This document shows positions 35,418 through 57,967 of a stretch of DNA of 64,000 nucleotides, one piece after another. The stretch covers positions 12,182,269 through 12,246,268 of the forward strand of contig NC_069129.1 in the NCBI RefSeq assembly GCF_026914265.1, read 5' to 3'. This DNA is from Mya arenaria. Its lineage: Eukaryota > Mollusca > Bivalvia > Myida > Myidae. The notes under the pieces were generated by a model, which saw only the letters and a list, made by a program, of their open reading frames with translations, was not told the origin of the DNA and did not search any database. The position numbers and the translations under genes were made by a program. The stretch's first letter is position 1. Every line of letters starts with the position of its first letter.

Positions 35418-36353
35418 TCAAAGAAAATATAGCTTTGTAAGGGTACTGGTAACCAATGGCAACGGGATATCATAATTGTCATAGTCGGTAGTATTCTGCA
35501 GAGGTTCGACTATATTGCAAACTTCTCCTAGTATTCGTGTAGAATTTGAAAGTAAATTTTCACCCCTGTAATCATCGTTATTCATAACTGTGAGAAATGC
35601 CCGAATTAAAACAGATGTATCAAATCTGGGAACAACCGACTGAACAGGCCCTGCCCGAATATTTTGGTGCGAATCCGAATCATTTTCCGGAGTTTGTTTT
35701 CCCTTTTCTTTATCTCTTTCTTTATCTGCTAATGGCGTAAGCTTCTGTGGAATTGTTGACAGTATCACCAGTCGATCAGCATCAGTAGGTATCTTTTTTA
35801 CTTCTATATGGTCAGGAATCGCCTTTTCAACATGTGTAGGATAAAGCATTCCTATGTCATCAGCTTGTATCAGGAAAATCTTTGGTTTTAGTGCCATTGA
35901 TGGGGCGTTCTTTATTGGGTTGAATAAGAAGTCTAAGTGTATGGCCTTGTCATAGGCCTGTATTCGAACGCCACTTTGTTTTTCATCATCCAGATATGTT
36001 AAAAATACGAAAAAGAAGGCTTCGTATTCCCAACCGTTTTTAGCAAGCTTGACCAGACGGTTTTCTATTTCACTTGCTTTTTGGTTGCGATAAAACTTAA
36101 CTTCCATTTTATCCTTGCCGTATATATCGACAAGGAATTCATCTAATTTGGCGATATCAATGTCAACCTCTTCTCCGACGAGCTTAGATGCTTCTGTTAC
36201 TACCTCTTCCTTTACCTTCGCATGGCATTCCCTGCCAATGGGATTCAACTGTGAAAAGTAAACTACTAAAGTTTTCTTTCCATGTTTTGGATAATTTAAA
36301 CTTTCCCAATCTTCCTTCGTAGTAATTGCTTTCTTTCGATTCTGATTAGCCAT
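35418..36353 (-). CDS. Catalytically dead caspase-like protein (copy 1)
   Basis: Encodes 311 residues from MANQNRKK. This ATG lies just inside the exon, behind the splice acceptor TTAATTACAG; the longer frame upstream starts in intron sequence. Residues about 25-205 match the caspase p20 subunit (IENRLVKLAKNGWEYEAFFF, then KPKIFLIQA, then DADRLVILSTIP), and about 245-311 match p10 (TSVLIRAFLTVM, ending STLTKLYFL). There is no CARD or DED. The catalytic His of the SHG motif is Tyr120 (LTYL) and the Cys of QACRG is Asp165 (QADD). The S1-pocket Arg of the R-x-G-T motif and the SWR segment are also missing, so proteolysis is not expected. The p20-p10 linker is long and charged. Copy 1 is the most diverged of the four. 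A regulatory, decoy or scaffold role, as for c-FLIP-L, is inferred. Confidence 0.85.
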   Translation of the reverse strand: MANQNRKKAITTKEDWESLNYPKHGKKTLVVYFSQLNPIGRECHAKVKEEVVTEASKLVGEEVDIDIAKLDEFLVDIYGKDKMEVKFYRNQKASEIENRLVKLAKNGWEYEAFFFVFLTYLDDEKQSGVRIQAYDKAIHLDFLFNPIKNAPSMALKPKIFLIQADDIGMLYPTHVEKAIPDHIEVKKIPTDADRLVILSTIPQKLTPLADKERDKEKGKQTPENDSDSHQNIRAGPVQSVVPRFDTSVLIRAFLTVMNNDDYRGENLLSNSTRILGEVCNIVEPLQNTTDYDNYDIPLPLVTSTLTKLYFL

Positions 36354-37690
36354 CTTAAGGATTAGCCATCTGTAATTAAAATATGACATAATAATTTAAC
36401 ATAAATAGTGCATCAGTGTTTACCGTTTCAAAGAAAATCCCAACCATAGCATATTGTGAAATAAAGGTCACGGTAAGATTTGTGACCATTTTCATATGCC
36501 TCTAATAAAAAATAAATAAAAACAAACATTTACATGAGTAAACATGCAAAGGAAACTTCTGTTAATTTTCTATTCAGATTGTAAGGCAGGCATTGAGTAG
36601 TTCGTTTCTTCATCCACAATGTGTACAGACCGAGTTTATACACTGATCTTTTACGGTAGCTTGCAACTTACCTCAAATATGTCAAAAAGTATTAGCAAAT
36701 GATCGGGAATTAATTGAAGATTTGTACGAAGATGAAAGCTTAACGTCAAAGCAAACTTAAAGCAAGAATGTGGATACAATACTGAATTAATGAAATATTA
36801 TATAATATAAATTTACTTTCGATCTGGGTTTTTAATGTTTTGATTAGTCAGTCACAACTAGTTTGGATATCGTGAAAAATATGAAAACTACAGAGACAAG
36901 CCGAGTAGTCTACAACTAAACGATGACCTGTTCAGAAGCAATGTTTCAATGCCTGCCGAAGTCAACAAAAGAGACATAACTTCACAATACGAAAAAAAAA
37001 AAGATTCAATACACGTGAAAATATCTGCATCAACAAATGACAAAACCCAAAGAATGAAATATGTTATAGGTAGAACTATTAAACTGCTAAGCACGATGAA
37101 ATAACTGTTGTTTGTATCACGGATTATGACTATTTACTTTTTAAAAAAAATACTTGGGTACAGTATGTTAATGCATTACAGATATATTTGATATCCTACA
37201 TACCACAGCAAATTCATTTATTATATTAAAGGATAAAGTCGTCATAATGCATCTCGGTATAGTGTTCTAAAAATGTAAAAGTATTTTTACAAGTTTTCCA
37301 ATTAATATAACCAAACGTTTTAATAACCCCATCCCATCCATTCCTTTCAGTGCTTTGATTATCTTTGTTTTAAATATGTTCAAAGGTAAATTGTATTTTA
37401 TTGTAAAACTAACTATTTTAACCAAAAAATAATCGATATGAGATGAATATATGTTTTAATTTCAGATCCGTGATACTCATTTCGAGATAATTTATCATTC
37501 AAAGTTCATCGTGTTGTTGGACATAGGAAACAGAAAGTACACCGAAAAACAAGTTAGAAAAAATGTACAGAAAGCAAAATACTATATAACGAGTATGATT
37601 GTATACATAACCAACTGTATCAAATGAACTTACCAGACACAATCCAACACTTAACAATTTATTAACAAAACATACTAAAGAGGTAATTCA
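36354..37690 (-). other. 5' leader intron and end of non-coding first exon, copy 1
   Basis: Minus strand: a GT donor in GGTAAGTTC at 37633 and an AG acceptor at 36370 delimit a 1264-bp intron, and the coding exon starts at 36369. The equivalent donor and acceptor are kept in all four copies, which supports the model. Intron landmarks shared by the copies are CAGTGCTTTGATTAT (plus strand) and a GTAAGGCAGGCATTGAGTA stretch. Confidence 0.6.
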
Positions 37691-38130
37691 TTTCCACAGT
37701 GACTTGAAGGGAATGTGCTGAATTTTGACCTCTAAAAAAATTTAGTGAAATTTTACCTAAAATAACCTAAAATATATTTTTTTTTTCTTCAGATTCATCA
37801 AAGGGGTCACTCATACCAACTATCTAGCATAAATAACTATGAATTACGGCACTTTTACAAAGTCAGAAAATCTCGATTTGTCTAAATAGACTAAAGTGAA
37901 ACAACTCCAATTTCATCGAAATGTGACAGCTAAGAACAACATGCCTACAAAGGCACCCAAACGATCAACCTTACTAATATTTCATCAATTACCTTTCATT
38001 AATAAACGAACAAAACAGCCTTTACTCGCGAGATAATGGGTAAATTAAAAGAAGAAAAAAACACATGCAGGTTTGGTTACATTACACTATTACTTCTTCC
38101 CCGAATTCGGCTACCACGTCTGCTTCATGA
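37691..38130. other. Extra segment in leader of copy 1
   Basis: About 440-460 bp lie between the donor-proximal and promoter-proximal parts of the leader exon and are missing from the other three copies. No terminal repeats were found, so it may be an insertion in copy 1 or a loss in the ancestor of the others. Confidence 0.4.
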
Positions 38131-38195
38131 ATAAATCAAATAAACAAAAATAACAGTTTAATTTAGTAACCTCCCTTGGTTACACACATTAATTA

Positions 38196-38214
38196 GAGGG
38201 ATGATCCAAAGTCA
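38196..38214 (-). promoter_or_regulatory. Conserved leader block GAGGGATGATCCAAAGTCA, copy 1
   Basis: The same block is at 44104-44123, 51880-51899 and, shortened, 59436-59450. It lies 55-80 bp downstream of the TATA-like box in the direction of transcription and stays nearly unchanged while the flanks drift. It is followed by a CTCCCTTGGTTAC-type element. Function unknown; a downstream promoter or leader-RNA element is possible. Confidence 0.45.
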
Positions 38215-38271
38215 ATGTCGGCCAATGCAAAGCTTAATAAACTTGTATATGTAGTTTTCTGTAGCCGTCAG

Positions 38272-38278
38272 TTTTATA
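38272..38278 (-). promoter_or_regulatory. TATA box of caspase-like copy 1
   Basis: TATAAAA on the minus strand, inside a block (GAATAAACAGTATAAAACTG) that is conserved upstream of copies 2 and 3 as well. Transcription would start near 38245. Confidence 0.5.
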
Positions 38279-38334
38279 CTGTTTATTCGAGGAAACAACT
38301 TTTTTCAAAACATGTTCTGGGATTTCATGTACAT

Positions 38335-38725
38335 ATTAAAACCAATCTGAACATAAAAAATTTATAAAAGACAAGTAAAGAGGAAAACTATATTTTTTGT
38401 GTTTTTTTTTATACCTTGTCCTTGAAGTGCCTTATCTCCATTTGAAGTACTTTATTATAAAAGTATTATCCATGTGAATAATCCCTCTTAGTTACTTGGT
38501 GAATATAACAATATTCGATCATAGTATTTGTGTTGAAAAGGAAATTATTGCGGCTATCTTGGGTGCCATCTTGGATCTCCTTTTCGCAAGAGCCTCCAAG
38601 TGGTCAAACTCACGTTTCATTACCTCTAAACTTTAACCTTAAATATAATTTAAAGATATTTTGTATTGCAGAGGGGTGCTGTAAATTCCATTATATTTCA
38701 TTTTTTAACCTTGAAACCCGGACTA
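38335..38725 (-). mobile_element. Solitary arm of the long-TIR element
   Basis: Matches the right arm (about 5950-6375) of the element at 1700: TTGGGTGCCATCTTGGAT, TCCTTTTCGCAAGAGCC and GCAGAGGGGTGC in order, ending CCCGGACTA at 38725. It has no partner arm nearby. It lies just upstream of the TATA box of copy 1 and may affect that promoter. Confidence 0.65.
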
Positions 38726-39996
38726 ACCTGTCAACAAATTTGACTGTCGATTTCATTCACATTTAGTATCTGTTTTGTGTCATGATGAATATTTTAACAG
38801 ATGTTATTTTACTGCGGTTTCGTAGATTGTTGCATATACAATTATACACAGGTTTTTGGATTTATATTTCGATATATAACTGATGGTTAAATGTGTTGTT
38901 CGTAAGAAGAGACATTGGGCGTTTGGTCTATTTGAATTTTAGCTTTTGTTTTGCGTTCATAACTTTGTCCCGAAAATAAACTTGAAACATTTAATTAACT
39001 TTATTTTTAGAATTTCAATTTGGTGTCTGTTAAATATTTGTATTTCAATATGACTATTTTTTGTTCACATTGACAGAAAGTCAGCCTTTGGAGGGTGATT
39101 ATGATAATTACTGGACTTTTACAAACTGTTTCGTTGGGTTTCTAGGTGCTAATGTGTACTGATGTATGTTAAAAATTGAAAGATTTAATTGTCTGATAAC
39201 TTGGTTAAGAGAAGATTCGAAAAGTGTGTACAGTTCTGAAAACATACTTTTGAAGCTATTGGGGATGTGCTGTCTGGCATTTAAAACGGTTATGTAATTC
39301 CATTTATTAACATTCCACCATCCCTGCAATATTATTGAGGGCAATTTAATGTAGTTATTCATCTAGACGTAGAAGCAAGAGACAAGCTTTTAAAGTTTTA
39401 TAGCGGTCAAAAATAAATCAATTTTATGTGAGTGAAAGGGTGATTAATTTCTTTGGTACAGACATTTTCGCACTAAACATGGCTGTTCACATTACTTGAT
39501 TGGAATGATATATTTGTGCACGTAAGCCATTTATACAGAAAAATATGCCATAATTAGAACTGCATTATTTTTCTTATTTACAAATAAGAAATATTACGGC
39601 ACGAAATTTGCAGTTTTATAAGTATGTCATTAATGTTGTTGTTTTTTCGGAAAGAATAAAAGACGTTATATATAACATTATTAAACTGACTATGAATTCT
39701 GGAAAAAAATAAATATTAGTAGCTGGTTTTTTTCCTACATTAACAGACGTATGATACCGTTAATATCATTATTATTCGGTTTTGTAATAAATTAATCATA
39801 ACATTTTAAGATACATGTATGTTTTTGCCTTAATCTTTGCTTCAGAATACATTTAAACCACATACACATATTGCTTAATTGAAATTCAGTCTTCTTCCAA
39901 TATCATGAAAGCCGATCAAACACAATAAAAGAGACAAAATGCTTTTAAGATCAAACACCAATATATCGCCATCGGTAAGCGTTGCCAACACGTAAC
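38726..39996. other. No gene recognised
   Basis: AT-rich spacer with short frames only. Confidence 0.4.
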
Positions 39997-39999
39997 CAA

Positions 40000-40145
40000 G
40001 GGTGGTATTCAATATTCAACTTAAGTAAATCTTATGGTCATACATGATTGACTTCATTCACTCTGTTGGTCAGTTATAAATAACAAGTAAGCGGATTAGC
40101 TACATCGTTCTTAGATCCATTTAAGATCAATATAGAATACCACCC
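40000..40145. mobile_element. MITE with GGGTGGTATTC ends
   Basis: 146 bp with inverted ends GGGTGGTATTCAATATT and GGGTGGTATTCTATATT (minus strand), flanked on both sides by CAA (39997-39999 and 40146-40148) as a 3-bp target duplication. Non-coding and self-complementary. The same trinucleotide flanks the long-TIR element at 1700-6375. Confidence 0.7.
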
Positions 40146-40382
40146 CAAGTCTTATCAATTATTAAAAATGTTGACAAATCAAGGGGTTGTTGCAGTGAGT
40201 ATGCTATATATCGAACATATGCGATATATTTTGCCGATATATACTGTTTTCTCAAGATTGAAATGTCTAGTTGGAGAGCGAAAACATACGATGGACTGCC
40301 CCCGCCTATCCTTTTCATGGCTGATCTAAACATGGTATTTTTTCTACACGTTAAGATTCAAGTGCATGCTTGATTATAGCTT

Positions 40383-40742
40383 TTAAAGCTGCGCATTCAC
40401 AGATTGACCGTCTTGTATTGACCTTTTTTTTTTAGTTTTGGAAAGGGCCAATTTTTGCGTAAATGTCTGAAATCCAGTGATATATGCCTGCTAACAAAAG
40501 ATCAGATCGCTTTTTTCATATTTACGCAAGAAAATTGATGTTCTATGGCAAAACGCATTACTATCGCTTTGAAATAATGACTATTTTAAGAGAAATTCGA
40601 CAATTTTCCAACCAAAGATACGTTCTATTGCGAGTTATCTTATATGACTGAATTCATAGCACTGAAAGCCAAAATCAGCTGATTCTGAGACAAAAAATTA
40701 AACGGTTGTCAAATCGGTTAATCTGTGAGAGTGCAGCTTTAA
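40383..40742. mobile_element. Palindromic TTAA MITE
   Basis: Starts TTAAAGCTGCGCATTCACAG and ends CTGTGAGAGTGCAGCTTTAA. The two halves are largely inverse of one another. A sister copy is at 47821-48187. TTAA at both ends fits a piggyBac-type target duplication. Confidence 0.7.
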
Positions 40743-41963
40743 TAAGGCACTGCACAGTAGTATCAACGAAATTCATAAACATTGCTGTATAGCTTGCATG
40801 TTTTAAAAAATAACACCCTTGTTAAGACATGGAAGGGATAGAAGACTTAATACCTTCACGTCCTCGATACAATAGAATGAATAGACGATTTATCTTCACT
40901 TTAAACGTTTAAAATATTATATTACATACTATTATGTTAAGTATATAAAGTTTCGCCTTCATGAGATGAAATCTGGGCTTGTTTGAATATTACACCTTAG
41001 TCCATATCGACAACCATAAGAAAGCTGTATAACTGGTGGGTACAAAAGGAGCAAAATCGATTTAATCATACAAAGCGTTTAAAGGGATAACGCATATATG
41101 TAAAGGATATCAAACATACAAACACATCAAGCGTTCTAATTTGTAACATTTATTCTTCCTTTTAATACAATTGTTCTATTGCAAATTTTATTGCAGATGC
41201 ACACTTTCTGGTTTTAGATCTGATGTTATAAACTCTGTATTTCACTAATCATGGACAATACAACTGGGGCATGGTTTTCTTCATTTTTTAAAAACCATAT
41301 AGCGAAATAAAGGGTAAGCGTAGTTTTATACTACAAAATGAGTTAAGTATGTACATGTTAAGATAAAGTTTAGTACATCAAAAAAGGAAATAAATTTGAC
41401 CGCTGCGCAGATTGACGAAATGGTAATAATTGAATTGGTCTTGATTCAGGACGTCAGAAAAAAACAACCGATAATAATACCCTCTATGTATCATAACATT
41501 TAACAAACCATTATCATAAGGCATAAATACACAAAACATATATGCACACATCGACGACCAAATAATCGACCATACTCATAAAAGAAAGAATATACACAAC
41601 TATTCAAATGAAACTATTACCCTTTTTTATAATAAAATTATATAACACAACAAGCATTTCATAATTTTTAACTTATGGTACTTGTACATTTTCATTATTC
41701 CATCTATTCCACAATATTTACGTTTTGTATTTTAAACACTTTAATCTGTATCGAACTAAATACGTCTTTAACCTTATTGACAGCAGACGTATTACACAGT
41801 GGAGTGCACTCATTTTTTTTTTCATCGGCCGATGAAACTCATTTTCTGCATAATACACAAGTTAATTATCTGAGTAAATTTACCCATTGATGTATTGCGA
41901 TTTCCAATTAATTATTTTTTCAGCCAACATCAAGCACGCACGTCATGTCTTATACATATCAGT
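40743..41963. other. No gene recognised; 3' flank of second caspase-like gene
   Basis: AT-rich with short frames only. No canonical AATAAA was found within the first 80 bp past the stop of copy 2. Confidence 0.4.
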
Positions 41964-42866
41964 TTATGTAAGAAAATAGCGCTTTGTAAGGGTACTTGTC
42001 ACCAACGGCAAAGGGATATCATAATTTTCATAGTCGTCAGTCTTCTGCAAAGGGTCAATCAAATTGTCAACTTTCCCAAGTATTCGTGTAGAACTTGTAA
42101 GTAAATTCTCATCCCTATGCACATGGTCATTCATTACTGTGAGAAACGCCCGGATTAAAACAGATGTCTCCAATCTGGGAGGAGTCGGCTGAACACCTCG
42201 GGAAGCATTGGGTTCATTTACCGGAGTTGTTTCTCGTACCGCATCTGCTAATGGCGACAGTGCCTGTGGTATTGTTGACAATATGACCAGTCGATCAGCG
42301 TCAGTGGGTATCTTTTTTATTTCTATATTTTCCGGAATCGCTTTATCTATTTGTGTTGGATACAGCATTCTAAGGTCATCCGCTTGTATAAGAAAAATCT
42401 TCGGTTTAAGTGCCATTGATGGAAGGTCTTTAATTCGGTTGAATATAAAGTCCACGGGTATGGCCTTGTCATACAACTGTATTCTAACATCTTCGTGTTC
42501 TCCATCCTGCAGATATGAAAGAAATATGAAAAAGAAGGATTTGTATTTCCAACCATCTTCAGCAAGAGTTACCAGATATTCTTCTATTTCCCTTTTCAAC
42601 TTGTTGCGACAAAGTTTAACTTCCAAATGCTGCGAATCGTATCTATCGATGAAAAACTGATCTAATGCGACGATATCAACGTCAACCTCTTCTTCAAAGA
42701 GCGTAGAGCTTGGTGATAATACTTCTGCCTTTTTCTTCGCATGTTGTTGGGTTCCAATTGGATTCAACTGTGAAAAATATACGACTAAAGTTCTTCCGCC
42801 ACGGTAGTCTTTACTTGCCAAGTCTTCATTCGTAATAATGTGTGTGGGGTCAAGTCGTTGATTCAT
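41964..42866 (-). CDS. Catalytically dead caspase-like protein (copy 2)
   Basis: Encodes 300 residues starting MNQRLDPTH. The start is chosen because the acceptor CTATTTTTAG ends 16 bases before it, as in the other copies. The p20-like part runs from about residue 24 to 205 and the p10-like part from about 235 to 300. The caspase signature is KPKIFLIQA, but the Cys position is Asp163 (QADD) and the His position is Tyr118 in LSYL, one residue from the usual LSHG. Later landmarks are DADRLVILSTIP, TSVLIRAFLTVMN and the C-terminal STLTKRYFLT. The linker is proline- and threonine-rich instead of charged as in copy 1. It is closer to copies 3 and 4 than to copy 1. The frame is open, which suggests a functional non-proteolytic protein. 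Confidence 0.85.
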   Translation of the reverse strand: MNQRLDPTHIITNEDLASKDYRGGRTLVVYFSQLNPIGTQQHAKKKAEVLSPSSTLFEEEVDVDIVALDQFFIDRYDSQHLEVKLCRNKLKREIEEYLVTLAEDGWKYKSFFFIFLSYLQDGEHEDVRIQLYDKAIPVDFIFNRIKDLPSMALKPKIFLIQADDLRMLYPTQIDKAIPENIEIKKIPTDADRLVILSTIPQALSPLADAVRETTPVNEPNASRGVQPTPPRLETSVLIRAFLTVMNDHVHRDENLLTSSTRILGKVDNLIDPLQKTDDYENYDIPLPLVTSTLTKRYFLT

Positions 42867-42882
42867 CTTAAGGATATGTGAT

Positions 42883-43980
42883 CTAAAAATAGATGACAGA
42901 AATATTTTCAAATAAATAGTCAGATGTTTTGTATTTCGTGGTTAAGTAAATCACTACAATTTCTTTAAATTAAGGAGCGGCTTGATTTTGTACTAATTTG
43001 AGATGTTTACAACTATCATTATTTATAAGATTAAGCATGTTATTCGATAATGAAGTGAAGCCATATATTTATTTTTATTCAAATTGTAAGGCATACGTTG
43101 AGTATTAATTGTTATCCACAATTTGTACGGACCGAGTTTATAATCTTAATGAAACACAGTTGTTTCAGCCATATTTATCAGGATGGATCATAACCACATT
43201 CACTCAGCCACTTATTGCTCATCTTTTATAAAAAAGAGTATGCATTCTACATGTTTAAGGCAAATCTTAAATGCCCAAATGACAATGCCTACATTATGTC
43301 ATACGTACCCATATTCGATTGCTTACTACGATAATAATATGCCTTTTTCAGAACCATTTTGTTGAGTGTTTCGTCTTAAATATACTTGTTTCGAGTCTTA
43401 GAAAAAAATAATATTTGTCTGGATACGATACTTGAATTGTTGGTATAACTGTTGTTGACGCTTTAAACTGTTTTAAAATTAAAAGACATTGTTTTGAAAA
43501 GAATGTAAATGAATTACATACATATTTCAATGAAACAATAGTCACTACAAATTCATTTATAACATTAAATCATTGATTCGTCGTTGTACATCTTGGGATA
43601 GTGTTCTATAAATGTAAAAGTATATACACAAGTGTTCCAATTATTAACCTGCCGTTATTAATAACCCCATCCCAACCATTACTTTCAGTGCTTTGATTAT
43701 AGTAAATCTGTTTCAGAATATATTGTTTATTTCAAGTATAACTATCAATTGAAACTTATTATTGATACATTTGAGATTAATATATAGTTCAATTTTAGAT
43801 CCGTTATATTCATTTCAATTTAATTTACCATTCAATGTTCGTCAATCATCATGTGTTTCGATATAGGAAACCGAAAGTTAAAACAAAAGTTGGAAAAACA
43901 GTATATTAAACGATAACAAATAACTATACTTCGAGTATGATTTTGTAAATAACCCAACAAATTAAACAAGATTAACTTAC
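42883..43980 (-). other. 5' leader intron, copy 2
   Basis: Donor GGTAAGTTAATC at 43980 and acceptor CTATTTTTAG at 42883 on the minus strand, 1098 bp. The leader exon would extend from 43981 to about 44160, below the TATA-like sequence at 44185-44191. Confidence 0.55.
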
Positions 43981-44184
43981 CAAACAAAACTCAGCACCTA
44001 ACCGTACATAAACATAATGTTCAGTCGATGTATCTTTTTCCGGTACGGATCAAAACAAAAATAAGAGTTAAATGAGTAACTTCCCTTTAATACAACTTCA
44101 TTCGAGGGGTGATCCAAAGTCATTTTGTGTCAATTGTAAACGCTTAAAACCCCTCTTATATCTGAAGTATTCTGTAGCTGTCAG

Positions 44185-44191
44185 TTCTATA
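44185..44191 (-). promoter_or_regulatory. TATA-like box of caspase-like copy 2
   Basis: TATAGAA on the minus strand at the place of TATAAAA in copies 1 and 3, inside the same conserved block. One base weaker than the other two. Confidence 0.4.
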
Positions 44192-44244
44192 TTGTTTATT
44201 CAGGTGAAAAACATTTCGAAATATCTGATGTACAACTTATTAAT

Positions 44245-45225
44245 TAGTAATTATGATTAACCGCCTGAAGAATTATATTGTTCTACAGCAAAAATTTAAG
44301 CCTTGAGTTTTAATAAACCTTGAAATCACACATGCAGTTATCTTTCAGCGTTCTTGGTGAACAAATGAAAATGAATAAATGGAAAACAAAATTTAGTTGT
44401 TTTGCGCGTTCCATAAACACCAAACATAATATCGAAACATATGTTCGGGTATTTGCTATTCATCATAACACGGACATATATGTCAGTGATAATAAAAAAC
44501 AGAAATAAGCTAGAGCGGTGATCTAAATTCAATATCACAAAAATCGTTAAATAATGCTTATATATATCGTTTGATATTTCTACAAAGAATGGAATGTCAA
44601 ACTCTTAAAAAGGTTTAAATATTAATATTCGATCTATATTGTAAATCGTGATGATCTTGAATGTAAGTCAAATTCAGTAAATCGTTTTAATGTATCAATG
44701 TCTGTCATCGCATTATTCTAGTACTTTGAAATGTCAAAGCATTTCGCATTTAAACAGGTCTTTTATACGTATGTAATCCAACGACTTCGGTTGAATTAAT
44801 TTTGCGGTTAATTCATTTAATTGACGTTTTCAGTATAAAATTAAAATTAGATGCGACAGGGTAATTACGAATGGTTGGTATTTAGACATAGTACAATTGT
44901 TTGTTTTTTGTTTGTTTAATTGAACATTCAAACTTGTTGACATTCAGCGAAGCAATGTTGAACATTTCATGATGATAATTTTATTTAAAGGATTTTGTTA
45001 AATACAAACCCTAAGCTTAATTTGACTTTCCACAATACATTAGGGTTGGAGAAGAACCAAATGTGCGTTTTCCGATTTGATTTTACCTTTAGGTCTGAGG
45101 TACACTATTTTGCAAGAGTAAAACAGGCATGCTTTGCTACAATAGTGTGTACAATAACTAGACAATAAAGCATTGATTCACTTTTCTGAAGGCCGCTTAT
45201 TTATTCAAGTAGATTTATTCAACGT
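44245..45225. repeat. Duplicated 5' flank of copies 2 and 3
   Basis: Follows 52440-53740 closely (AATCACACATGCAGTTATCT, AGAATGGAATGTCAAACTCTT, CAATAACTAGACAATAAAGC). The unit holding copy 3 carries insertions that this one lacks, so 44235-44255 and 44665-44690 serve as empty sites. Confidence 0.7.
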
Positions 45226-47440: not shown

Positions 47441-47820
47441 TTTATGACTCGTATGACCTTTGACCGAGCTGGCTGTTCGGTGGGGTTTTCACATCGTTTC
47501 AATACGGTGAACATTTTTGCGAGTTATTTTAAAATCCTTCAAACGGTTCAAGAATTATGGAGCGGACACGAAAGACAGACATACAGACAACTGGAGCAAA
47601 ATCAATATGTCTCTCCATCTATTGGGGTGACATACTTAGTGTGCTTAACTATCCAAAAAGTGAGATACATTACAAATACCTTTTTTCAGAAATATATTGA
47701 AAAACACAATCTACTATTTATCAATTTAAACTCCTTTTAATTGTACATAATACCTATTCCATTTATAATACACCTATGTACTTACAAACTAACATCTACT
47801 TATAACTCTTTATTCCACCC
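47441..47820. repeat. Duplicated 3' flank of copy 3 with GACCTTTGACC-type repeat
   Basis: Matches about 56380-56790 of the copy-4 unit: ACATCGTTTCAATACGGTGA, TTCAAACGGTTCAAGAATTA and AATATGTCTCTC in order. The GACAGACATACAGACAACTG string is a frequent bivalve repeat motif. Confidence 0.6.
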
Positions 47821-48187
47821 TTAAAGCTGCACTCTCACAGATTGAACGTTTTGAAAACTTCTTTATTTTTTTGTCTTGGAACGAGCATTTTTTTGCGCAA
47901 ATCCATGGAAACCAGTTTAATATACGACTGCTGACAAACAATTAGATCGCAGATATGTATATTTAAGTTCGAAAATTGATGTTTTATGCATTTTTCTTAA
48001 ACCGTGAGTAACGGTTTAAGCCATACAACATTAATTTTCGAACGGAAATATGAAAAACAGCGATATGATTTTTTGTCAGCAATCTTATATCATTAGTTTG
48101 AAGATGTTTACCCAAAAGTTTGCTCTTTCCAAGACAAAAAATAAAAAAAGTTGTAAAAATGGTAAATATGTGAGGGTGCAGCTTTAA
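47821..48187. mobile_element. Palindromic TTAA MITE
   Basis: Starts TTAAAGCTGCACTCTCACAG and ends GTGAGGGTGCAGCTTTAA. The two halves are inverse of each other around about 48010 (AATTGATGTTTTATG against CATACAACATTAATT). Sister of 40383-40742. Not evident in the corresponding flank of copy 4. Confidence 0.75.
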
Positions 48188-48348
48188 GATAGCAGGCGTA
48201 TAACAATGAGGAATGGACTATTACTTTTTTTCAATTGACCATGTTCTAGCAAGACACAAGAACATCGTCTTACAAAAGAGTAGCTATGCCTCAGACTAAT
48301 TCTATCTTTTGTATACATCTTCGGCCGACTCAAAGGTCCGCGTATGAA

Positions 48349-49254
48349 TCAAAGAAAATACCACTTTGTAAGGGTACTTGTCACCAACGGCAACGGGATT
48401 TTATAACTTTCATAGTCCGAAGTTCTCTGCAAAGGGTCAATCAAATCGCAAACTTCCCCAAGTATTCGTGTAGAATTTTTAAGTAAGTTTTCATCTCTGT
48501 ACACATGGTCGTTCATTACTTTAATAAACGCCCGGATTAAAACAGATGTTCGCAATCTGGGAGCAGCCGGCTGAACACCTTGGGGAGCATTCGGTTCATT
48601 TACCGGAGGTGTTTCTCGTACCGCATCTGCCAATGGCGACAGTGCCTGTGGAATTGTTGACAGTATTACCAGTCGATCAGCATCAGTAGGTATCTTTTTT
48701 ATTTCTATTTTGGTTGGAGTCGCCTTAACTATTTGTGTCGGATAAAGCATTCTTAGGTTATCCGCTTGTATAAGGAAAATCTTCGGTTTAAGTGCCATGG
48801 ATGGAAGGTCTTTTATTTGGTTGAATACGAAGTCTAGGGGTACAGCCGTGTCATAGACATGTATTTGAACGTCACCGTGTTCTCAAATCTGTAGATATGT
48901 TAGAAATACGAAATAGAAGGCTTCGTAGTTCCAACCATCTTCAGCAAGCGTTTTCAGATATTTCTCTATTTCGCTTGCTAAATGGTTGCAACAATGTTTA
49001 ACTTCCAAATGTCGCGGTTCGTATATATCGGCGAAGAACTGCTCTAATGCGGCGATATCAACGTCAACCTCATCTTGGTAGAGAGTAGATTCTCGGGTTT
49101 GTACAACTTCCTTTTGTTTTGCATGTTGTAAGGTTCCAATGGGATTCAGCTGAGAAAAGTAAACAACTAAAGTTTTCCTGCCTTGCTTCGTGTAGTCTTT
49201 ACTTTCCCAGTCTGCCTCCGTTATAATTTCTTTTTTTCGATGCTGACTGGCCAT
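48349..49254 (-). pseudogene. Caspase-like copy 3 with in-frame TGA
   Basis: A 301-codon frame from MASQHRKK, over 90 percent identical by eye to copy 4, with one in-frame stop: codon 124 is TGA (48885-48883) where copy 4 has GGA. Everything after it stays in the same frame, through Asp165 in QADN and STLTKWYFL at the end. The His position is Tyr120. If the stop is real, only about the first 123 residues, half of the p20 part, would be made. Splice acceptor, leader intron and TATA box are intact, so it may still be transcribed. Alternatives are a segregating null allele, a sequencing error, or TGA read-through; a recent pseudogene fits best. Confidence 0.8.
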
Positions 49255-49270
49255 CTTAAGGATAAGTCAT

Positions 49271-51757
49271 CTGGAAATAGGAAAGAAACATTTTTATTTT
49301 TTAAAATAAAAAGTGTTTCGGAGTATATCGAATAAAAGGAAATATATACCATCGCATATTGTTAGCGGTAAGATGTGTTACTAATTAGAGCTATGTTTAC
49401 ACCTCTTTTTTTACTGTTTTTGAAAATCAGCATGTGATTCAATAAGCGATTGAAATTATAGATTGTATTCACATTGTAAGGCAGGCATTGTGTATTCCAG
49501 TTGTTATCCATCATGCGTGCAAACCGGGTTTATGATATTCATGAACTAAATAGTATTTACAGATAAAAATAGTAACCTTTATAAATTGGATTTATAACTT
49601 AATTTATAGCTACGTGGCTAGTAATCCCCAGTTTAACTGACAACCGCAAAAAATCGCTCATATTTTTATCGGTACACAATCATATACTTTCTTGTTTTGC
49701 TCATGAAAATCAAATGATTTAAATATGATTATCCATTTTTGCATCAATCTATAGTATGCGCCATCAATACACATGCAAAGATCAATATATGACAACTCAT
49801 AGAAAATGTTAGGCTATCGGTAGTCTAAAGCGCTATGTCGACGTCGGATATCTCGATTTTTCGGTTGTGTCGACTTTTTTCTACGGTCCCGAATTTATTC
49901 CTCCTTATTCTATATAAAATAAATCTGCTTGTGTCGATTTTTCTATCTCGATTTTTTCGGTATGTCGACCTCCTATTTCAGTCCCTGTGGTCGAATTTCT
50001 TACATCTTTTTTGTTCCTTATGTCGAACTGTAAATGAGTTGTAGGTGCGAAAATATTCATGACGGTTTGCGGCATGTCACTAAATTACCGTGCGTGTCAG
50101 ATTAACAAACTGTCATAATTGGAGGGTAATTGATAAGTGTGAATAATTAAAGTTGTTTGTTTATGTTTTTGATTCAAGGGGCATTTATTGCTCAAGCTAT
50201 TTATTGAAACGCACAAGAACGCGGATGACATTATGTGAAAATTCGACAACATTGAAAGTTACGTGACGAATAAAATTCTTTACACTGCATGTAAAAAATA
50301 TACAGGCATGACAGCCTTTTTTAAACCAGTTCAAATGGTATCTTCATGTGCAAAATAGTGCTTGAATGTAATTTTTGAGAATGTGCTATATTGCTGTGTA
50401 TTATATCATGAATGTGCTATTTCATCAAAGTTGTTCTCATATATGCTATACTGTTTTTTTTACAATGTACAAGTGTATGTGATTGTGGTTTTATATCTGT
50501 TTTGCGTATTCCATATACGTGAATTAAATGAATTTGACACAAATAAAAAAACAACTCTATCTTCCAATAATACGTTTGCTGTTTTCACGACGGTAATATA
50601 TAACAAGACCGGTCAATTGCAGAAGTCGGACATTGGACATAAATCGAACTCAAATGTGTTGGGATCGGTGATCGTTTTCTTGTAATTCGGATGTGTCGAA
50701 TGTTCGTTATCTCGACCCTTTTCCCTAGGTCCCGACAAAGTCGACCTAACCAGTTTCGACTGTAGTATTTAACTGCTTAGCAAGGCGAAAATAAAACATC
50801 TTTCATTTTTTAAAAAGCTAGTTGTTTCTTTGAAAAAGTCACTCTGGAAAATGTACTTTAAAGGAATCAAAATATATTTAAATCGTACATCACAAACCCT
50901 TATTAAGAAGTCTACTGTATGACGCAAGCCTTGTGAAAGAAAACGCTACCAGCTAACATAACTAATAATAATTACATAAATGGCAAAGCAAATTCATCTA
51001 TAACATTTCAGCATTAAGACGTCGTTGTTCATCTCGGTTTTTATTCTAAAAATATAACAGTATGTACACACGAGTTCCAGTTACGAACCAAACGTTTTCG
51101 TTTCCTTCTATTCTATGTGTACGGACCGGGTTTATAATCTTCGTGAAATACACAGTTGTTTCAGCCTTATTTGTAAGAATGGATCATAACCACATTCACT
51201 CAGTCACTTATTGGTCACCTCTTATAAAAAAAGGTTTAACTTTTGTCGAAGCTTAACTGTTTAAAAGACATTGTTTTGCAAACGGAATGTAAAAGCATTA
51301 CAGGTATGTTTTGATGTGACACAACGGTCATAACAAATTCACTTAAATCATTGATTCGTCGTCGAACATCATGGGATAGTGTTCTATAAATGTAGAAGTA
51401 TAAACAGAAGTTTTCCAATTATTAACCTGACGTTATCAATAACCCCATCCCAACCATTACTTTCAGTGCTTTGATTATCGTTAATCTGTTTTAGGGCATA
51501 TTGTATCTTTCCAGTAAAACTATCAATTTAAACCAATTATTAACATATTTCAGATAAAAATATAGTTCAATTTTAGATCCGTCACATTTATTTCCATTTA
51601 ATTTACCATTCAAGGTTCGTCAATCATCACGTGGTTGGATATAGGAAACCGAAACTACAACAGAATGTTGGAAAAATAGTACAGTAAACCTTAACAAATA
51701 ACTATACTTCGAGTATGATTCTGTAAGTAATCCAACAAGTTAAAAAAAATAACTTAC
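49271..51757 (-). other. 5' leader intron, copy 3
   Basis: Donor GGTAAGTTATT at 51757 and acceptor CTATTTCCAG at 49271, 2487 bp. It is about twice as long as in the other copies because it contains the TA-flanked transposon at 49823-50762. Confidence 0.55.
49823..50762. mobile_element. TA-flanked pogo/Tigger-like non-autonomous transposon
   Basis: 940 bp between two TA dinucleotides (49821-49822 and 50763-50764). The unit of copy 4 has one TA at the same point (58549-58550, AATTAGTATTCAACTG), so the insertion is exact. The ends are rich in TGTCGAC, ATATCTCGAT and AGTCGAC words, known from bivalve pogo/Tigger-type elements. The terminal repeats are diverged and no transposase frame remains; the 107-codon frame inside (50362-50685) is low-complexity. 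Confidence 0.6.
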
Positions 51758-51879
51758 CAGACATAATACAGCACTTGACAGTACATAAACATAATGTTCA
51801 ATCGATGTAACTTTCGATTTGGATCAAAACAAAAATAACAGTTTAATTGAGTAACTTCCCTTTAGCACAAAAATCATTT

Positions 51880-51899
51880 GAGGGATGATCCAAAGTCAT
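51880..51899 (-). promoter_or_regulatory. Conserved leader block, copy 3
   Basis: GAGGGATGATCCAAAGTCAT, the same block as at 38196-38214 and 44104-44123. Confidence 0.4.
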
Positions 51900-51959
51900 T
51901 CTGTGTCAATGGTAAACTTAAAAAACCCTCTTATATCTGAAGTATTCTTGAGCTGTAAG

Positions 51960-51966
51960 TTTTATA
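51960..51966 (-). promoter_or_regulatory. TATA box of caspase-like copy 3
   Basis: TATAAAA on the minus strand about 200 bp above the leader donor at 51757, in the block shared with copies 1 and 2. Confidence 0.45.
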
Positions 51967-52027
51967 TTGTTTATTCGGGTAAAAAAAACCCTCTTTGAAA
52001 ACATTTCGGATATCTAATGTACAACTT

Positions 52028-52420
52028 GTATGTATGTATGTATGTATGTATGTATGTATATATTTCTGTAAACCTGGCGGTCAAGGATAACCCGTGAAAC
52101 TGCAAGCACTTATTTCCAACGGGGTCTTTTGTGTGTTTTTTGCTGAAGGAATAGCACGCGTAAGAAACAGTGGTGGGATACAAGGAAGTCCGGGCTCTTC
52201 TTTTCGAAGAGACCCCTAGGTTCTTTTACGTGCTCAGTGTGAAGCACCGATACACGGGGTACAACTTTTCTGGTTTATCCAGTACACCACTTTTCCAAAC
52301 ACTACCCTTTAAATGCCGAGCGCCATGCAATGAAGCTACTTGTACCAACGTTTAACGTCTTTCGGTATGACGCGGCCAGGGATCGAACCCACGACCTCCA
52401 GCTCTGTAGGCGCATAAATT
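52028..52420 (-). mobile_element. tRNA-derived SINE
   Basis: On the minus strand a B box GGGTTCGATCCC lies at about 52390-52379 behind a tRNA-like head (GAGGTCGTGGGTTCGATCCC), followed by a body with GACGTTAAACGTTGGTACAA and CGTGTATCGGTGC. The tail is a tetranucleotide run (TATG/GTAT)n at 52028-52060. The unit of copy 2 (near 44230-44255) lacks it. Sequences of this kind are common in bivalves. Confidence 0.7.
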
Positions 52421-52439
52421 AAGTAATATGATAACCCCG

Positions 52440-53750
52440 CCTGTATAATTATACTGTTCTACGGTGCTAATCATTATGCCTGGAGTTTTAATTAACCTTG
52501 AAACCTTGGAATCACACATGCAGTTATCTTTCTGCGTTCTTGGTGAACAGATGTACATGAATAAATGGAATACAAAATTTAGTTGTGTTGCGTGTTCCAT
52601 GAACACCAAACATAGAAACAAAACATAAGTTCGAGTATTTGCTATTCGGCCTTATATAACATGGACATAAATGTCAGTGATTATATAAAAAAGAAATCAG
52701 CTGGAGTGGTGACCTTAATTCAATATAACGAAAATCATTAAATAATGTCTATACATGTCGTTTGATATTTCTACGAAGAATGGAATGTCAAACTCTTCAA
52801 TGGGTTTAAGTATAAATATTCTATCTTTATTGTAAATCGTATTGATCTTGTGTATAAGTCAAATTTAGTATAATAATGAGCCAGTCAATTGTAACCACGG
52901 TCCCCACAGGTCCGGGAGTATAACGGGGAAAACAGGGGAGAAGGGCCGTGTTTTTACTTTCCAGGTGGCCCCGTAGTGCCGAGTGACTGTGGTGGTTGTG
53001 ATTTCGCGCCGAAAATAGCGGGGAATGGGCCTAATATAGGATGCCCCTGGGGTGGCAGGGATTTTACCAGCAGTTTGTCCCCGCTGGGCGGAGATTTTAC
53101 CGGGGTTGGCTGGGCCGTAATTCAAAGTCCCCACTATTCTCCGCACCTTGGGGACGTGGTTACAATTGACTGGTTCATAATCTCTTGATTGTATCAAAGT
53201 CTGTCATCGCATCATTCTAGTACATTGAATGTCAAAGCATTTCACATTTAAACAGGTTTTGTTTTTTATATGTATGTTATCCGACAACTTCGGATGTAAT
53301 AATTTTGCGAATTATTCATTGAATTTGTCCAAACTGATACCCCACGTTTTCAGTATAAAATTAAAAATAGATGCGACATATTTTTACGAATGTTTGGTCT
53401 TTAGACATAGAACATTTGCTTTCCTTGTTTAATTGAACATTCTAAATATTTGACATTCAGGGAAGCAATGTTGAACATTTCATGATGATAATTTTATTTA
53501 AAGGATTTTGTTAAATACAAACCCTAAACTTGATTGGACCTTCTACAGTTTTGGAAGAACAAAATATGCGGTATTATCTTATTTTACGTTTAGTTTTGAA
53601 GTACATGTGTACAATTTTTTGCAGGCGTAAAACTGACATGCTTAGCTACAATGTTTTGTACAATAACTAGACAATAAAGCATTGATTCACTTTTTCTGAA
53701 GTCCGCTTATTTATCCAAGTAGATTTTTTATATATTCATATTTCATTTCT
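52440..53750. repeat. Duplicated 5' flank of copy 3
   Basis: Paralogue of 44265-45225, enlarged by the MITE at 52877-53177. No gene. Confidence 0.65.
52877..53177. mobile_element. GC-rich MITE, Harbinger-like
   Basis: 301 bp with inverted ends TGAGCCAGTCAATTGTAACC and TGAACCAGTCAATTGTAACC (19 of 20) that extend to about 35 bp. TAA lies at both ends (52874-52876 and 53178-53180). A 3-bp TAA target is a PIF/Harbinger hallmark. The copy-2 unit near 44675 is unoccupied. The GC content is far above the surroundings, and the open frames on both strands are by-products of that. Confidence 0.7.
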
Positions 53751-55239
53751 TTTCAAACGGAAACGTATGTCGACATTATACATATGATTTTGTATCACAA
53801 TTTTCCAGACTATCCATTTAACATGTATAGTGGGTTATTAATGATGTGTTTAAATATATATAAAAACTCGAGGTAAAAAAATGCACATACCACAAAGCCA
53901 CATTAAATTGTTGATTGGACAGTGCCAAACAATTTTGCACCTGAAACTATTTTTAACATTTAGTATTTTCTGTGCTTGAATTGTATGTAGTCTCGATGGG
54001 TCGATCTGGGAATCTAAGCGGAAGATTGTCCTTAAACAACATGTAAGTCTTCGGTAGTATATACAACTGTGAAGTACATAGTATAGTGTAGTTGTTTTGA
54101 GAGCTTTGCAGTTTGCACTTATCTATCCAAAGATTTTCATAACACTGCTACTTTACCACCAGACATTTATATCGATGGATATTCTAACTGCCTGAACATA
54201 GTTATGTTTCTAATTAAGAAAGCATACACAATAAATTAAGCAAGCCTATGTGGATAAATTTTCATGAAAGGTTTTCACTAACGTTCAGGGCATTATCCTG
54301 GTCGAAATAATCATAGTAGTGTACATTTCCCAAATTTCTGTATAGGCTTCGGTCAAACAAAAATCTCCTTCTTCTATGGACGGACATTCACTAGTTTTTG
54401 CTCCGCCGGATCACTAACAAACCGACCTGTTTCTATCCGAAGTGGCAAACGTAAACACCTGAACTGACACAATACAGAACGTTCAGTTTTGCCCAAGTTG
54501 ATGTAATATTCTACCTTAAATGTGTCTTTGGTTTACATGTTTTCAGTTTAGAATATATGCTGCACATCTGTCTAACATTTTCTACTGTATAAGTCATGAA
54601 AACGGTTATCAACGTTGGAAACAACATATTTAGATTCAGTAAAACCTTTAAACCTGCAGCATTCATCACTTGTTTAACTTCATTTGGCCAATTGTTCATA
54701 GAAGTATGTCTTGCATATTGAACCTTAAAAGGGCAAATTTCACCAATTCGCAAGTGCCTTCTCATTGTTACGTGCATTTTTTTAATAGACACATGACAGT
54801 GATTCAAAGCATCGTTATACCACCTCAGACAATTGGCTACCTTCCACATTTATAGGTTTTGAAACTGAATGGTTTGTGTTTTCAAAAACAGGCTGATGAT
54901 TTTCACATGTAAATAATAAAGTTTTATCAAAACAAAAACTAAACGATTATTTTTGGGGGGAAATTACACCATTCGGTAGTATTTGCTGCATGCCCTATTT
55001 AGTTTTATTGACAAACGACAATGAATCAAAGCATCGTTATCCCATCTCAGATCATTGGTTACCTTCCATATTTATAGGTTTTGAAGCTGAATGGGTTGTG
55101 ATTTCAGAAACAGTCTGAATCAACTTGATCTACTTTTAATTGTTTACATTTTCACTGCATTGTTTGTCCACGTACACCGGATATTGTCAATTTACCGAAT
55201 ACACAGTTGTTACGTTCAACCATTTTTTATTATCTTATG
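53751..55239. other. Spacer between units; no gene recognised
   Basis: Unique AT-rich DNA. Two direct copies of about 105 bp lie at 54784-54892 and 55012-55120 (AATCAAAGCATCGTTAT, ATTTATAGGTTTTGAA). A 112-codon minus-strand frame at 54511-54849 has no recognisable family. Confidence 0.4.
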
Positions 55240-57061
55240 ACAAACGTAACTTTTTTCTAACGTTTTTTAATGTTATATAGAAAATTTATTTAGTGGTCTG
55301 TGACATGAATGTTTGCATACTTGTTTTATCAGTGCCCAAGTTTCTAGTTTTTTTTTTCAAGTTTATTTGTATCAAGGCATATAATACACATATGATATAA
55401 CAACTGATTAACAACAAAGAAGTGTCCCCGAGTTTGTTTTTTTTTACATTTTTTATCGTTTGCTTTGACCAATTATTATTTTACTTAATGTACATATACC
55501 ACTACTTCAGTCACCTTTAATGGAATGAATGTTGCAAGTTTTAATATCATGTTGTTTAACTGCTTTATATTGTTTTTATATCAATATATGTTCAAATTTC
55601 ATATTAGTGTACAACGCCATTGAATATAGAAACAGGCGTTTAATCAAATAAACACATTTAACATTTAACAACAAAGAAACGGTTCAAACACCAAACACCA
55701 GAGCAATGTACACAAACAATTGACATTACATGGACACTAAAGAAAATATCAGAAATTTCTTATGCAAAATCAATGATATAAAGAAGAACGAAATTACTTG
55801 ATTTGGACAAGATGATCTTAGAAAATAAAGCTAAATTTAATAGTCTGGTTTTATTGTTAGTATTCATTAGAACATCGACTTCATACATATTGGGATGGTT
55901 GAAATAGTTATAAGACATACATTTCTACCTATAATCATTGAAGTGGTTAATCTCCTATTAAATCTTGATTACAGAGTGTACATATTCTTAGGCTATATTC
56001 AATACACTGGCACCGGATTTTCAAACTCAATCATTTTTTAAAAAAATCAAAAAAAATCTTATAATTCCTTACTAAAAATTCTAATACCGAATATGTTTTT
56101 TTTTTTTTAAATATGCACTTTGTACTGTATAATATACTAACCCACGATAATAATATTACGCGACCCGGGTAGGGAAACGTTCAATACCATGTTAGTATAT
56201 TACTGACCTGCATATGACCTTTGACCTGTCATTGACCTTGAATCCAGCTAATTGGAACATATACTCTGCACATTGTCTTAAAATGGTAAAATTTTGAGGC
56301 GAGTCGTTTTTCAAGACAAGGAGCGGACACGAAAAATAGACATATTAAAGTCATTTGACATTTGACCCCATAGTGTGACATATGACCGTTGATCGAGCTG
56401 GCTGTTACGTGGGTTCATCACATCGTTTCAATACGGTGAGCATTTGTTTCGAGTTATTTCAAAATCCTTCAAACGGTTCAAGAATTATGGAACGGACACG
56501 ATTTTTGACGGACAGACGGACGGACGAACGGACATACAGGCAACTCAAGCAAAAACAATATGTCTCTCAATATATTGGAGAGATATAATAAGTGTGCTTA
56601 ACTATCCAAAAATTGTGGCACATAACAAATACTTTTTTACAGAAATATATTGTAAAACACAATCTAGTATTTATAAATTTAAATACTCGTTATTGTACAT
56701 CTTACCTATTCCATAAATATCATATCCATGAACATGTATTCACAATCTAACATCTATATATAACTCATACATAAAAGTTGTACATTCGATACCCGATATA
56801 TAATTCCCTTATTTATGCACGGCGTAGAGGAATGGACTAATACTTTTCTTCAATTGGATGTTCAATCTAATTTTACCATATTCTAGCAAGACACAAAGAA
56901 CATCGTCTTATATAATAACATAATTTATGTGTATTTCATTGTCAACATTCGTTTTTCAGCTAGCGTCAACTTCATATGCATTTTTTTAAAGAAATGCCAT
57001 GCCTTAGAGTTATTCTATCTTTTGTATACATCTTCGGTCGGCTCAAAGGTCAACGTATGAA
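55240..57061. repeat. Duplicated 3' flank of copy 4
   Basis: Paralogue of about 45226-48348. It carries the insertion at 55422-55664 and lacks the LINE at 46372. GACCTTTGACC-type monomers lie at 56205-56600. Confidence 0.6.
55422..55664 (+). mobile_element. Short retroposed insertion, probable LINE 3' end
   Basis: 243 bp flanked by a perfect 14-bp direct repeat TTAACAACAAAGAA (55408-55421 and 55665-55678). The paralogue has the matching sequence only once (near 45375, TAAACAACAAAGAA). The 3' part has AATCAAATAAACACATTT, with an AATAAA signal near the end. A 14-bp target duplication with a polyadenylation signal points to LINE-mediated insertion of a 5'-truncated LINE or another transcript. 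Confidence 0.7.
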
Positions 57062-57967
57062 TCAAAGAAAATACCGCTTTGTAAGGGTACTTGTGACCAA
57101 CGGCAATGGGATATCATAACTTTCATAGTCGGGAGTTCTCTGCAAAGGGTCAATCAAATGGCAAACTTCCCCAAGTATTCGTGTAGAATTTGTAAGTAAG
57201 TTTTCATCTCTGTACACATGGTCGTTCATTACTTTAATAAACGCCCGGATTAAAACAGATGTTCGCAATCTGGGAGCAGCCGGCTGAACACCTTGGGGAG
57301 CATACGGTTCATTTACCAGAGATGTTTCTCGTACCGCATCTGCTAATGGCGACAGTGCCTGTGGAATTGTTGACAGTATTACCAGTCGATCAGCATCAGT
57401 AGGTATCTTTTTTATTTCTATTTCGGTTGGAATCGCCTTCACTATTTGTGTCGGATAAAGCATTCGTAGGTTATCCGCTTGTATAAGGAAAATCTTCGGT
57501 TTAAGTGCCATTGATGGAAGGTCCTTTATGCGGTTGAATACGAAGTCTAGGGGTACAGCCTTGTCATAGACCTGTATTTGAACGTCACCGTGTGCTCCAA
57601 TCTGTAGATATGTTAGAAATACGAAATAGAAGGCTTCGTACTTCCAACCATCTTCAGCAAGCGTTACCAGATATTCCTCTATTTCGCTTGCTAAATGGTT
57701 GCGACAAAGTTTAACTTCCAAATGCCGCTGTTCGTATATATCGGCGAAGAACTGCTCTAATGCGGCGATATCAACGTCAACCTCATCTTGGTAGAGCGTA
57801 GATGCTACGGTTTGTACATCTTCCTTTTGTTTTGCATGTTGTAAGGTTCCAATGGGATTCAGCTGAGAAAAGTAAACAATTAAAGTTTTCCTGCCTTGCT
57901 TCGTGTAGTCTTTACTTTTCCAGTCTGCCTCCGTTATAATTTCTTTTTTTCGATGCTGACTGGCCAT
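57062..57967 (-). CDS. Catalytically dead caspase-like protein (copy 4)
   Basis: Encodes 301 residues from MASQHRKK; the upstream extension of the frame lies in intron sequence, since the acceptor CTATTTCCAG ends 16 bases before the ATG. p20-like part about 26-205: HLEVKLCRNHLASEIEEYL, then FVFLTYL with Tyr120 at the His position, then KPKIFLIQADN with Asp165 at the Cys position. p10-like part about 234-301: TSVLIRAFIKVMNDH, ENLLTNSTRILGEV, and STLTKRYFL at the end. No prodomain. It is nearly identical to copy 3 but without a stop, and is the intact member of the youngest pair. The RING E3 ligase gene on the same strand is 2.9 kb to the right. A non-proteolytic partner of active caspases or adaptors is likely but inferred. 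Confidence 0.87.
   Translation of the reverse strand: MASQHRKKEIITEADWKSKDYTKQGRKTLIVYFSQLNPIGTLQHAKQKEDVQTVASTLYQDEVDVDIAALEQFFADIYEQRHLEVKLCRNHLASEIEEYLVTLAEDGWKYEAFYFVFLTYLQIGAHGDVQIQVYDKAVPLDFVFNRIKDLPSMALKPKIFLIQADNLRMLYPTQIVKAIPTEIEIKKIPTDADRLVILSTIPQALSPLADAVRETSLVNEPYAPQGVQPAAPRLRTSVLIRAFIKVMNDHVYRDENLLTNSTRILGEVCHLIDPLQRTPDYESYDIPLPLVTSTLTKRYFL

Follow-up and report, generated by a model that had tools for sequence, protein, structure and literature searches.

A total of four caspase-like paralogues were found in the 64-kb window (the whole stretch of DNA that was analysed), where they form a head-to-tail series on the minus strand with start-to-start spacings of approximately 6.5, 6.4 and 8.7 kb (Table 1). 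This confirms the tandem array of dead caspase genes that was described in the first-pass annotation of this DNA, including the state of the reading frames: three of the four (c1, c2 and c4) are open and the remaining one, c3, carries one in-frame TGA. Neither a fifth copy nor any caspase outside the four copies was found in the window, as the next matches in a tblastn search with c4 had E-values of 0.55 and 3.8 and a scan of the open reading frames gave no further candidate. No hits were obtained in the window with Rfam at its gathering threshold or with ARAGORN.

Table 1. Coordinates of the features annotated in the pseudocaspase array. Codons at the catalytic positions were identified by alignment to caspase-3 and their coordinates were counted from the ATG.
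Feature	Position	Strand	Description
c1	35418..36353	-	Intact pseudocaspase coding sequence, 311 aa, single coding exon
c1 Asp codon	35859..35861	-	Catalytic Cys position
c1 Tyr codon	35994..35996	-	Catalytic His position
c1 putative 5'-UTR intron	36370..37633	-	1264 bp, GTAAGT...CAG
c2	41964..42866	-	Intact pseudocaspase coding sequence, 300 aa, single coding exon
c2 Asp codon	42378..42380	-	Catalytic Cys position
c2 Tyr codon	42513..42515	-	Catalytic His position
c2 putative 5'-UTR intron	42883..43980	-	1098 bp, GTAAGT...TAG
c3	48349..49254	-	Pseudocaspase copy with one in-frame stop
c3 Asp codon	48760..48762	-	Catalytic Cys position
c3 in-frame TGA	48883..48885	-	
c3 Tyr codon	48895..48897	-	Catalytic His position
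c3 putative 5'-UTR intron	49271..51757	-	2487 bp, GTAAGT...CAG; 5' part c2-like, 3' part c4-like
c4	57062..57967	-	Intact pseudocaspase coding sequence, 301 aa, single coding exon
c4 Asp codon	57473..57475	-	Catalytic Cys position
c4 Tyr codon	57608..57610	-	Catalytic His position
c4 putative 5'-UTR intron	57984..59288	-	1305 bp, GTAAGT...CAG

The caspase homology proposed in the first-pass annotation was borne out by profile searches, including the clear match to Peptidase C14 that it had expected. Matches to the Pfam family PF00656 (Peptidase_C14) exceeded the gathering score of 21.4 bits in c1 (38.3 bits, E = 1.6e-9), c2 (44.7 bits, E = 1.7e-11; the top score among the four copies), c4 (39.5 bits, E = 6.5e-10) and the C-terminal half of c3 (27.6 bits, E = 2.8e-6), and the N-terminal half of c3 (127 aa), searched by itself, had no Pfam match at E up to 1. 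A profile of c1, c2 and c4 searched against the PDB found caspase-3 at E = 3.6e-4, with all 56 matches at E up to 0.1 being caspases, and c2 as a single sequence gave an E-value of 9.2e-4 in the same database with caspases in 52 of 52 matches. The single sequence of c4 was weaker than the profile as it matched caspase-3 at an E-value of just 0.017, and its list of 60 PDB matches also contains Hsp90-type and U2-suppressor chains. An unrelated fold was rejected on this sequence evidence, which points to caspases.

Structure prediction, which had been put forward as a check, gave no structural confirmation. The two AlphaFold models, built from three-sequence alignments, were of very low confidence with mean pLDDT values of 38.9 and 36.3 respectively. 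A Foldseek search with the pLDDT 38.9 model placed caspase-containing entries at ranks 1-23 (best E = 7.7e-5) and a dehydroquinase at rank 24, with 10 of the 1074 matches reaching an E-value of 0.001; the rank 1 entry has a TM-score to the query of just 0.29, and the Foldseek score also uses sequence. This outcome agrees weakly with the sequence homology and adds little to it.

Peptidase C14 was the sole Pfam family above the cut-off in the four copies, none of which gave a CARD or DED hit, in agreement with the first-pass annotation, and these domains were also not found in the 72 open reading frames of at least 75 aa in the window (scan at E up to 0.01). Only two matches were obtained with NCBIfam, both far under their cut-offs. 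The profile of c1, c2 and c4 was also searched for relatives, with 109 pattern stretches in a viral collection and 493 in a bacterial and archaeal collection, none of them confirmed, and a degenerate caspase-motif pattern had no match in the viral collection; these searches are silent on animal orthologues.

The coding part consists of one exon in all four copies. A candidate splice acceptor, with its AG located 16 bases before the ATG and a pyrimidine-rich stretch upstream, and a donor (TG/GTAAGTT) located 1.1-2.5 kb upstream are found in each copy, the donor TGGTAAGTT being the second longest invariant run in the 5' block that is alignable among the four copies. An addition to the first-pass annotation is thus a gene structure with one coding exon behind a putative 5'-UTR intron. 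The predicted splice joins TG to A and creates an in-frame TGA ahead of the ATG in all four copies, so that the first exon would be non-coding for the caspase frame, and a CARD or DED hidden on this upstream exon and added via this junction is ruled out. Alternative upstream exons might still exist for the four genes. Of the 654 gap-free columns in the 5' block, 327 are identical across the four copies, compared with 183 of 299 third positions in the coding part. Overall the block is not evidently constrained, with the donor and one 16-base run as the exceptions.

Active site, substrate pocket and processing site

The same two substitutions were found in all four copies by alignment to caspase-3, as the first-pass annotation had reported. 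FLSYL or FLTYL aligns with LLSHG of caspase-3, where Tyr replaces the catalytic His and Leu replaces the Gly that follows it, and KPKIFLIQAD aligns with KPKLFIIQAC, where Asp replaces the catalytic Cys. As the identical Tyr/Asp pair occurs in four copies, it most simply predates the duplications, which agrees with the proposal that catalysis was lost before the genes were duplicated.

We take the S1 pocket to be formed by Arg64, Gln161 and Arg207 (caspase-3 numbering). The Gln of QAC, which belongs to this pocket, is retained. The Arg64 position reads G, E, Q and Q in c1 to c4 respectively when the alignment is extended without gaps. The stretch where Arg207 is expected lies beyond the printed alignments, shows no SWR-like motif and falls in a long loop that is variable among the copies; this L3-like loop is longer than the corresponding loop of caspase-3. 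The suggested loss of the S1-pocket Arg holds for the Arg64 position, while Arg207 has probably been lost too.

The linker that separates QAD from KIPTDAD is similar in length to the p20-p10 linker of caspase-3. The position of the cleavage residue Asp175 in this linker reads E, D, V and V in c1 to c4 respectively, so the equivalent residue is missing in three of the four copies and only c2 retains an Asp, which is followed by Lys. The usual processing site therefore appears to be missing in at least three copies. With the dyad and the S1 Arg64 position changed, the proteins of the array are most likely unable to cut.

Duplication history and selection

The coding exons of c3 and c4 are nearly identical (92-99% per full 100-bp bin). 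Its distal 5' block, on the other hand, relates c3 to c2, with 86% identity to c2 and 70.5% to c4, and the switch between the c2-like and c4-like parts was placed near -1.85 kb by blastn. The copy c3 is thus a mosaic of c2 and c4, which would most simply have been formed by unequal recombination. Approximately 600 bp of upstream DNA and the putative intron are common to all four copies, which indicates that they arose via DNA duplication and rules out independent retrocopies. An older retroposition of the founder gene is possible given the intronless coding sequence.

The main selection test was limited to c1, c2 and c4, as the pairwise dS of a mosaic copy such as c3 can be misleading after gene conversion or unequal crossing-over. 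In these three copies (299 codons) omega was estimated to be 0.525, and omega = 1 was rejected (2dlnL = 20.6). A tree of all four copies with one omega gave 0.557 (2dlnL = 18.7 against 1), so the dN/dS comparison that had been proposed favours selection on the protein in both data sets. Pairwise estimates by codon maximum likelihood were 0.53 for c1-c2, 0.58 for c1-c3, 0.59 for c1-c4, 0.50 for c2-c3 and 0.45 for c2-c4, with 2dlnL values against omega = 1 ranging from 8.6 to 16.2. The exception is the c3-c4 pair, where omega is 0.84 and does not differ from 1 (2dlnL = 0.2). An overall omega of 0.53 is only moderate constraint, and it is unevenly distributed along the protein. The regional values for c1, c2 and c4 are 1.26 in the N-terminus, 0.65 in the N-terminal part of p20, 0.19 in the dead active-site core (SMALKP to STIPQ), 0.80 in the L3-like loop and 0.30 in p10; the model with five regional omega values improves the fit by 2dlnL = 52.2 (4 df), a statistic that is optimistic as the regions were drawn with the alignment known. 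The longest runs that are invariant in c1, c2 and c4 are KKIPTDADRLVILSTIPQ, PSMALKPKIFLIQAD and YDIPLPLVTSTLTK, and by homology we take YDIPLPLVTSTLTK to be the dimer-interface strand of caspases.

Neutral evolution was simulated with c4 as the start sequence and the estimated copy distances. The mean number of stops was 8.99 for c1, 6.69 for c2 and 4.35 for c4, with stop-free frames in 0, 0 and 10 of 1000 runs respectively, and all three frames were open together in none of the 1000 runs. The intact copies c1, c2 and c4 are held by purifying selection that is strongest in the dead core and p10, in keeping with the earlier view that the protein itself is under selection.

The c3 copy behaves differently. 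Its tip has an omega of 1.06 compared with 0.53 elsewhere on the tree, a difference that suggests relaxation and is not significant (2dlnL = 1.9), and the neutral simulation of the c3 tip gave a mean of 1.22 stops with 292 of 1000 runs stop-free. The sequence of c3 is compatible with decay.

Possible functions of the array

That these genes encode dead caspase homologues under selection is highly probable from their anatomy. They appear to be of the executioner type, with a short N-terminus and a caspase-3-like sequence. We infer that the proteins fold as caspases, and they would probably stay single-chain because the p20-p10 linker Asp is missing in three of the four; they would then work by binding, without cutting. 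The most likely partner would be an active executioner caspase, with which the pseudocaspase might pair via its conserved p10 strand, and such pairing could damp or allosterically tune the active enzyme by analogy with the action of c-FLIP(L) on caspase-8. For this explanation as a whole, an executioner-type pseudocaspase array that acts by binding with the heterodimer mechanism included, we estimate a probability of roughly 0.4, and it is accordingly offered as a tentative reading. The constraint on the central strands and the C-terminal strand would fit a protein in which selection maintains the fold and the dimer surface, but buried strands alone may account for how conserved the core and p10 are. 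Two further counterpoints concern the heterodimer: the copies appear to have no DED or CARD that could recruit the pseudocaspase into a caspase complex, and the window holds no further caspase. The decoy, scaffold or immune role that was raised in the first-pass annotation might be served by such proteins.

Other explanations are less probable to differing extents. One that is unlikely but deserves consideration is that the caspase domain might bind a microbial ligand such as LPS, for which catalysis would be dispensable. Binding of LPS is described in a review for oyster CgCaspase-3, where it depends on the CASc domain, and for CgCaspase-1 (PMC5877582), and the tandem amplification together with the faster p20 half (0.65) and loop (0.80) would fit a protein in an arms race, although the most conserved part of the array proteins is the dead-site core. 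Slightly less credible is a role as a sponge for inhibitors, in which the dead caspases would bind IAPs and so free the active caspases. IAPs are reported to act primarily by suppressing caspases and are strongly expanded in bivalves, with 159 in the hard clam (PMC7831173), and constraint on the array proteins is highest in the strand core that surrounds the dead site. However, the substrate groove that an inhibitor would fill is remodelled, with G, E or Q at the Arg64 position and a long L3-like loop that is close to neutral; as the linker Asp is missing in three of the four copies, the cleavage that exposes an IAP-binding N-terminus is also not expected.

It is improbable that the array consists of decaying relics, i.e., that an ancestor lost catalysis and its copies now drift, with three frames remaining open through young duplications. 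The stop codon and tip omega of c3, the c3-c4 omega that is indistinguishable from 1, and the near-neutral L3-like loop and N-terminus would all be expected of relics. Against this, c1, c2 and c4 differ significantly from omega = 1, the neutral simulations do not keep the three frames open, and the splice donor and acceptor are retained in four of four copies. For c3 alone, relic status is plausible. A repurposed fold, where the invariant Asp and Tyr would form a new ligand-binding or enzymatic site that is kept by selection, is drawn from the core omega of 0.19 and has little probability; the proteins would then be more than dominant-negative caspases and would represent a new functional class built on the caspase scaffold. 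Cutting through another nucleophile or residue is extremely improbable, for even though all four copies have the same Asp as replacement, inside the most conserved stretch, the alterations extend to the whole dyad, to the Gly that follows the His and to the S1 Arg64 position, and we know of no clan CD peptidase that works with a Tyr/Asp pair.

Comparison with known caspases

The first-pass annotation held that a pseudocaspase family of this kind would be new. This does not stand, as the literature already contains caspases with an altered dyad or active-site motif from mussel, oyster and scallop, and caspases in tandem or in clusters from the first two, so that the array is not evidence of a new type of system. 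What appears to be particular to it is the shared Tyr/Asp pair, the single coding exon with its putative 5'-UTR intron, the long loop that varies among the copies and the direct evidence of selection. A Tyr/Asp replacement of the dyad in a molluscan caspase was not found in the part of the literature that was searched. Several dead copies can be compared here side by side, with the core and p10 under purifying selection and one copy with a stop, which makes a non-catalytic function likely for such genes and testable within one array.

Caspases that lack the conserved His and Cys, and possibly catalysis, are described in Crassostrea gigas (PMC7836458). The same paper describes the cluster Cg3/7-like A-F on LG7, which lacks the conserved His and, by its description, resembles the array in being executioner-like and clustered with divergent active sites in p20; in the whole group, this His is reported to be retained by a single member, which is located elsewhere. 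Most of the group are stated to have the p20 subunit only, whereas the array copies have both p20 and p10. Another oyster caspase, Cg3A, shares the Tyr at the catalytic His position but retains the Cys (QSCRG) where the array has Asp (PMC7836458).

In Mytilus coruscus, tandem arrays and mutated dyads are likewise reported, with 16 of 47 caspase genes located in tandem arrays. Eight caspase-3/6/7 genes have a deletion or mutation of the His or Cys, three caspase-2/9 genes are changed at both dyad residues, and unusual functions have been suggested for these dyad-mutated caspases (PMC10967218). The replacement pair that is named there is Gly/Thr in caspase-2/9, in contrast to Tyr/Asp in the array. 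One of the 47 genes is given as intronless, being part of a two-gene array, and 45 as intron-rich (PMC10967218). Many sequences of the scallop Chlamys farreri are reported to lack the Ala, Cys or Gly of QACxG (PMC8878197), and a caspase-2 of Mytilus galloprovincialis without the pentapeptide has been likened to CLARP (PMC3037946).

Outside the molluscs, c-FLIP(L) is a caspase homologue in which both dyad residues are also replaced (by Arg and Tyr) and which is described as pairing with caspase-8 via its pseudo-catalytic domain (PMC7586951). It differs from the array proteins, which have no death-fold domain, in having tandem DEDs and in being a paralogue of caspase-8/-10. A further precedent for the proposed mechanism is provided by CASPS18 of Aedes aegypti, which is reported to be a decoy caspase that enhances CASPS19 (PMC4840389); this insect protein is described as having no catalytic domain of its own, whereas the array copies retain both p20 and p10.

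Upstream introns and leaders

The longest invariant run in the upstream DNA aligned among the four tandem pseudocaspase copies (c1 to c4) is ATCAAAGCACTGAAAG, which is identical over 16 bases in the inferred 5'-UTR intron of all four, a length reached in 8 of 2000 column shuffles. Its first bases, ATCAAAG, are similar to a TCF/LEF site, and the stretch is a candidate regulatory element. The c3 intron was found to be a mosaic, in which the distal part is c2-like and the part adjoining the coding exon is c4-like; part of the 5' block, the alignable upstream DNA common to all copies, occurs twice within it. Of the four inferred leaders compared, those of c1 and c3 each contain a very short upstream ORF, made up of an ATG, three further codons and a TAA stop, which those of c2 and c4 lack.

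Annotated features (window coordinates)
Feature	Position	Strand	Location or remark
c1 tiny upstream ORF	36355-36369	minus	inferred leader
c3 tiny upstream ORF	49256-49270	minus	inferred leader
c3 inferred 5'-UTR intron	49271-51757	minus	mosaic
ATCAAAGCACTGAAAG, 16-base stretch	37339-37361, 43677-43699, 51455-51477, 58990-59012	minus	inferred 5'-UTR intron of c1-c4
ORF upstream of c4	60916-61758	minus	RING finger, TRAF-/Sina-type zinc-finger matches
Transposase ORF	23985-25289	plus	Tc1/mariner-type, open
~84-bp unit	3736-4897		tandem array

Neighbouring ORF and repeats

The product of the ORF upstream of c4 resembles a RING-type ubiquitin ligase. It has a RING finger, its TRAF- and Sina-type zinc-finger scores are just below or below the cut-offs, a coiled coil was judged by eye, and it matches LNX and TRAF6 in the PDB.

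Elsewhere, the open transposase ORF matches HTH_Tnp_Tc3_2 (1e-19) and DDE_3 (2.3e-11), and the ~84-bp array has two listings, with 7.0 copies (74% match) and 6.8 copies (69% match).
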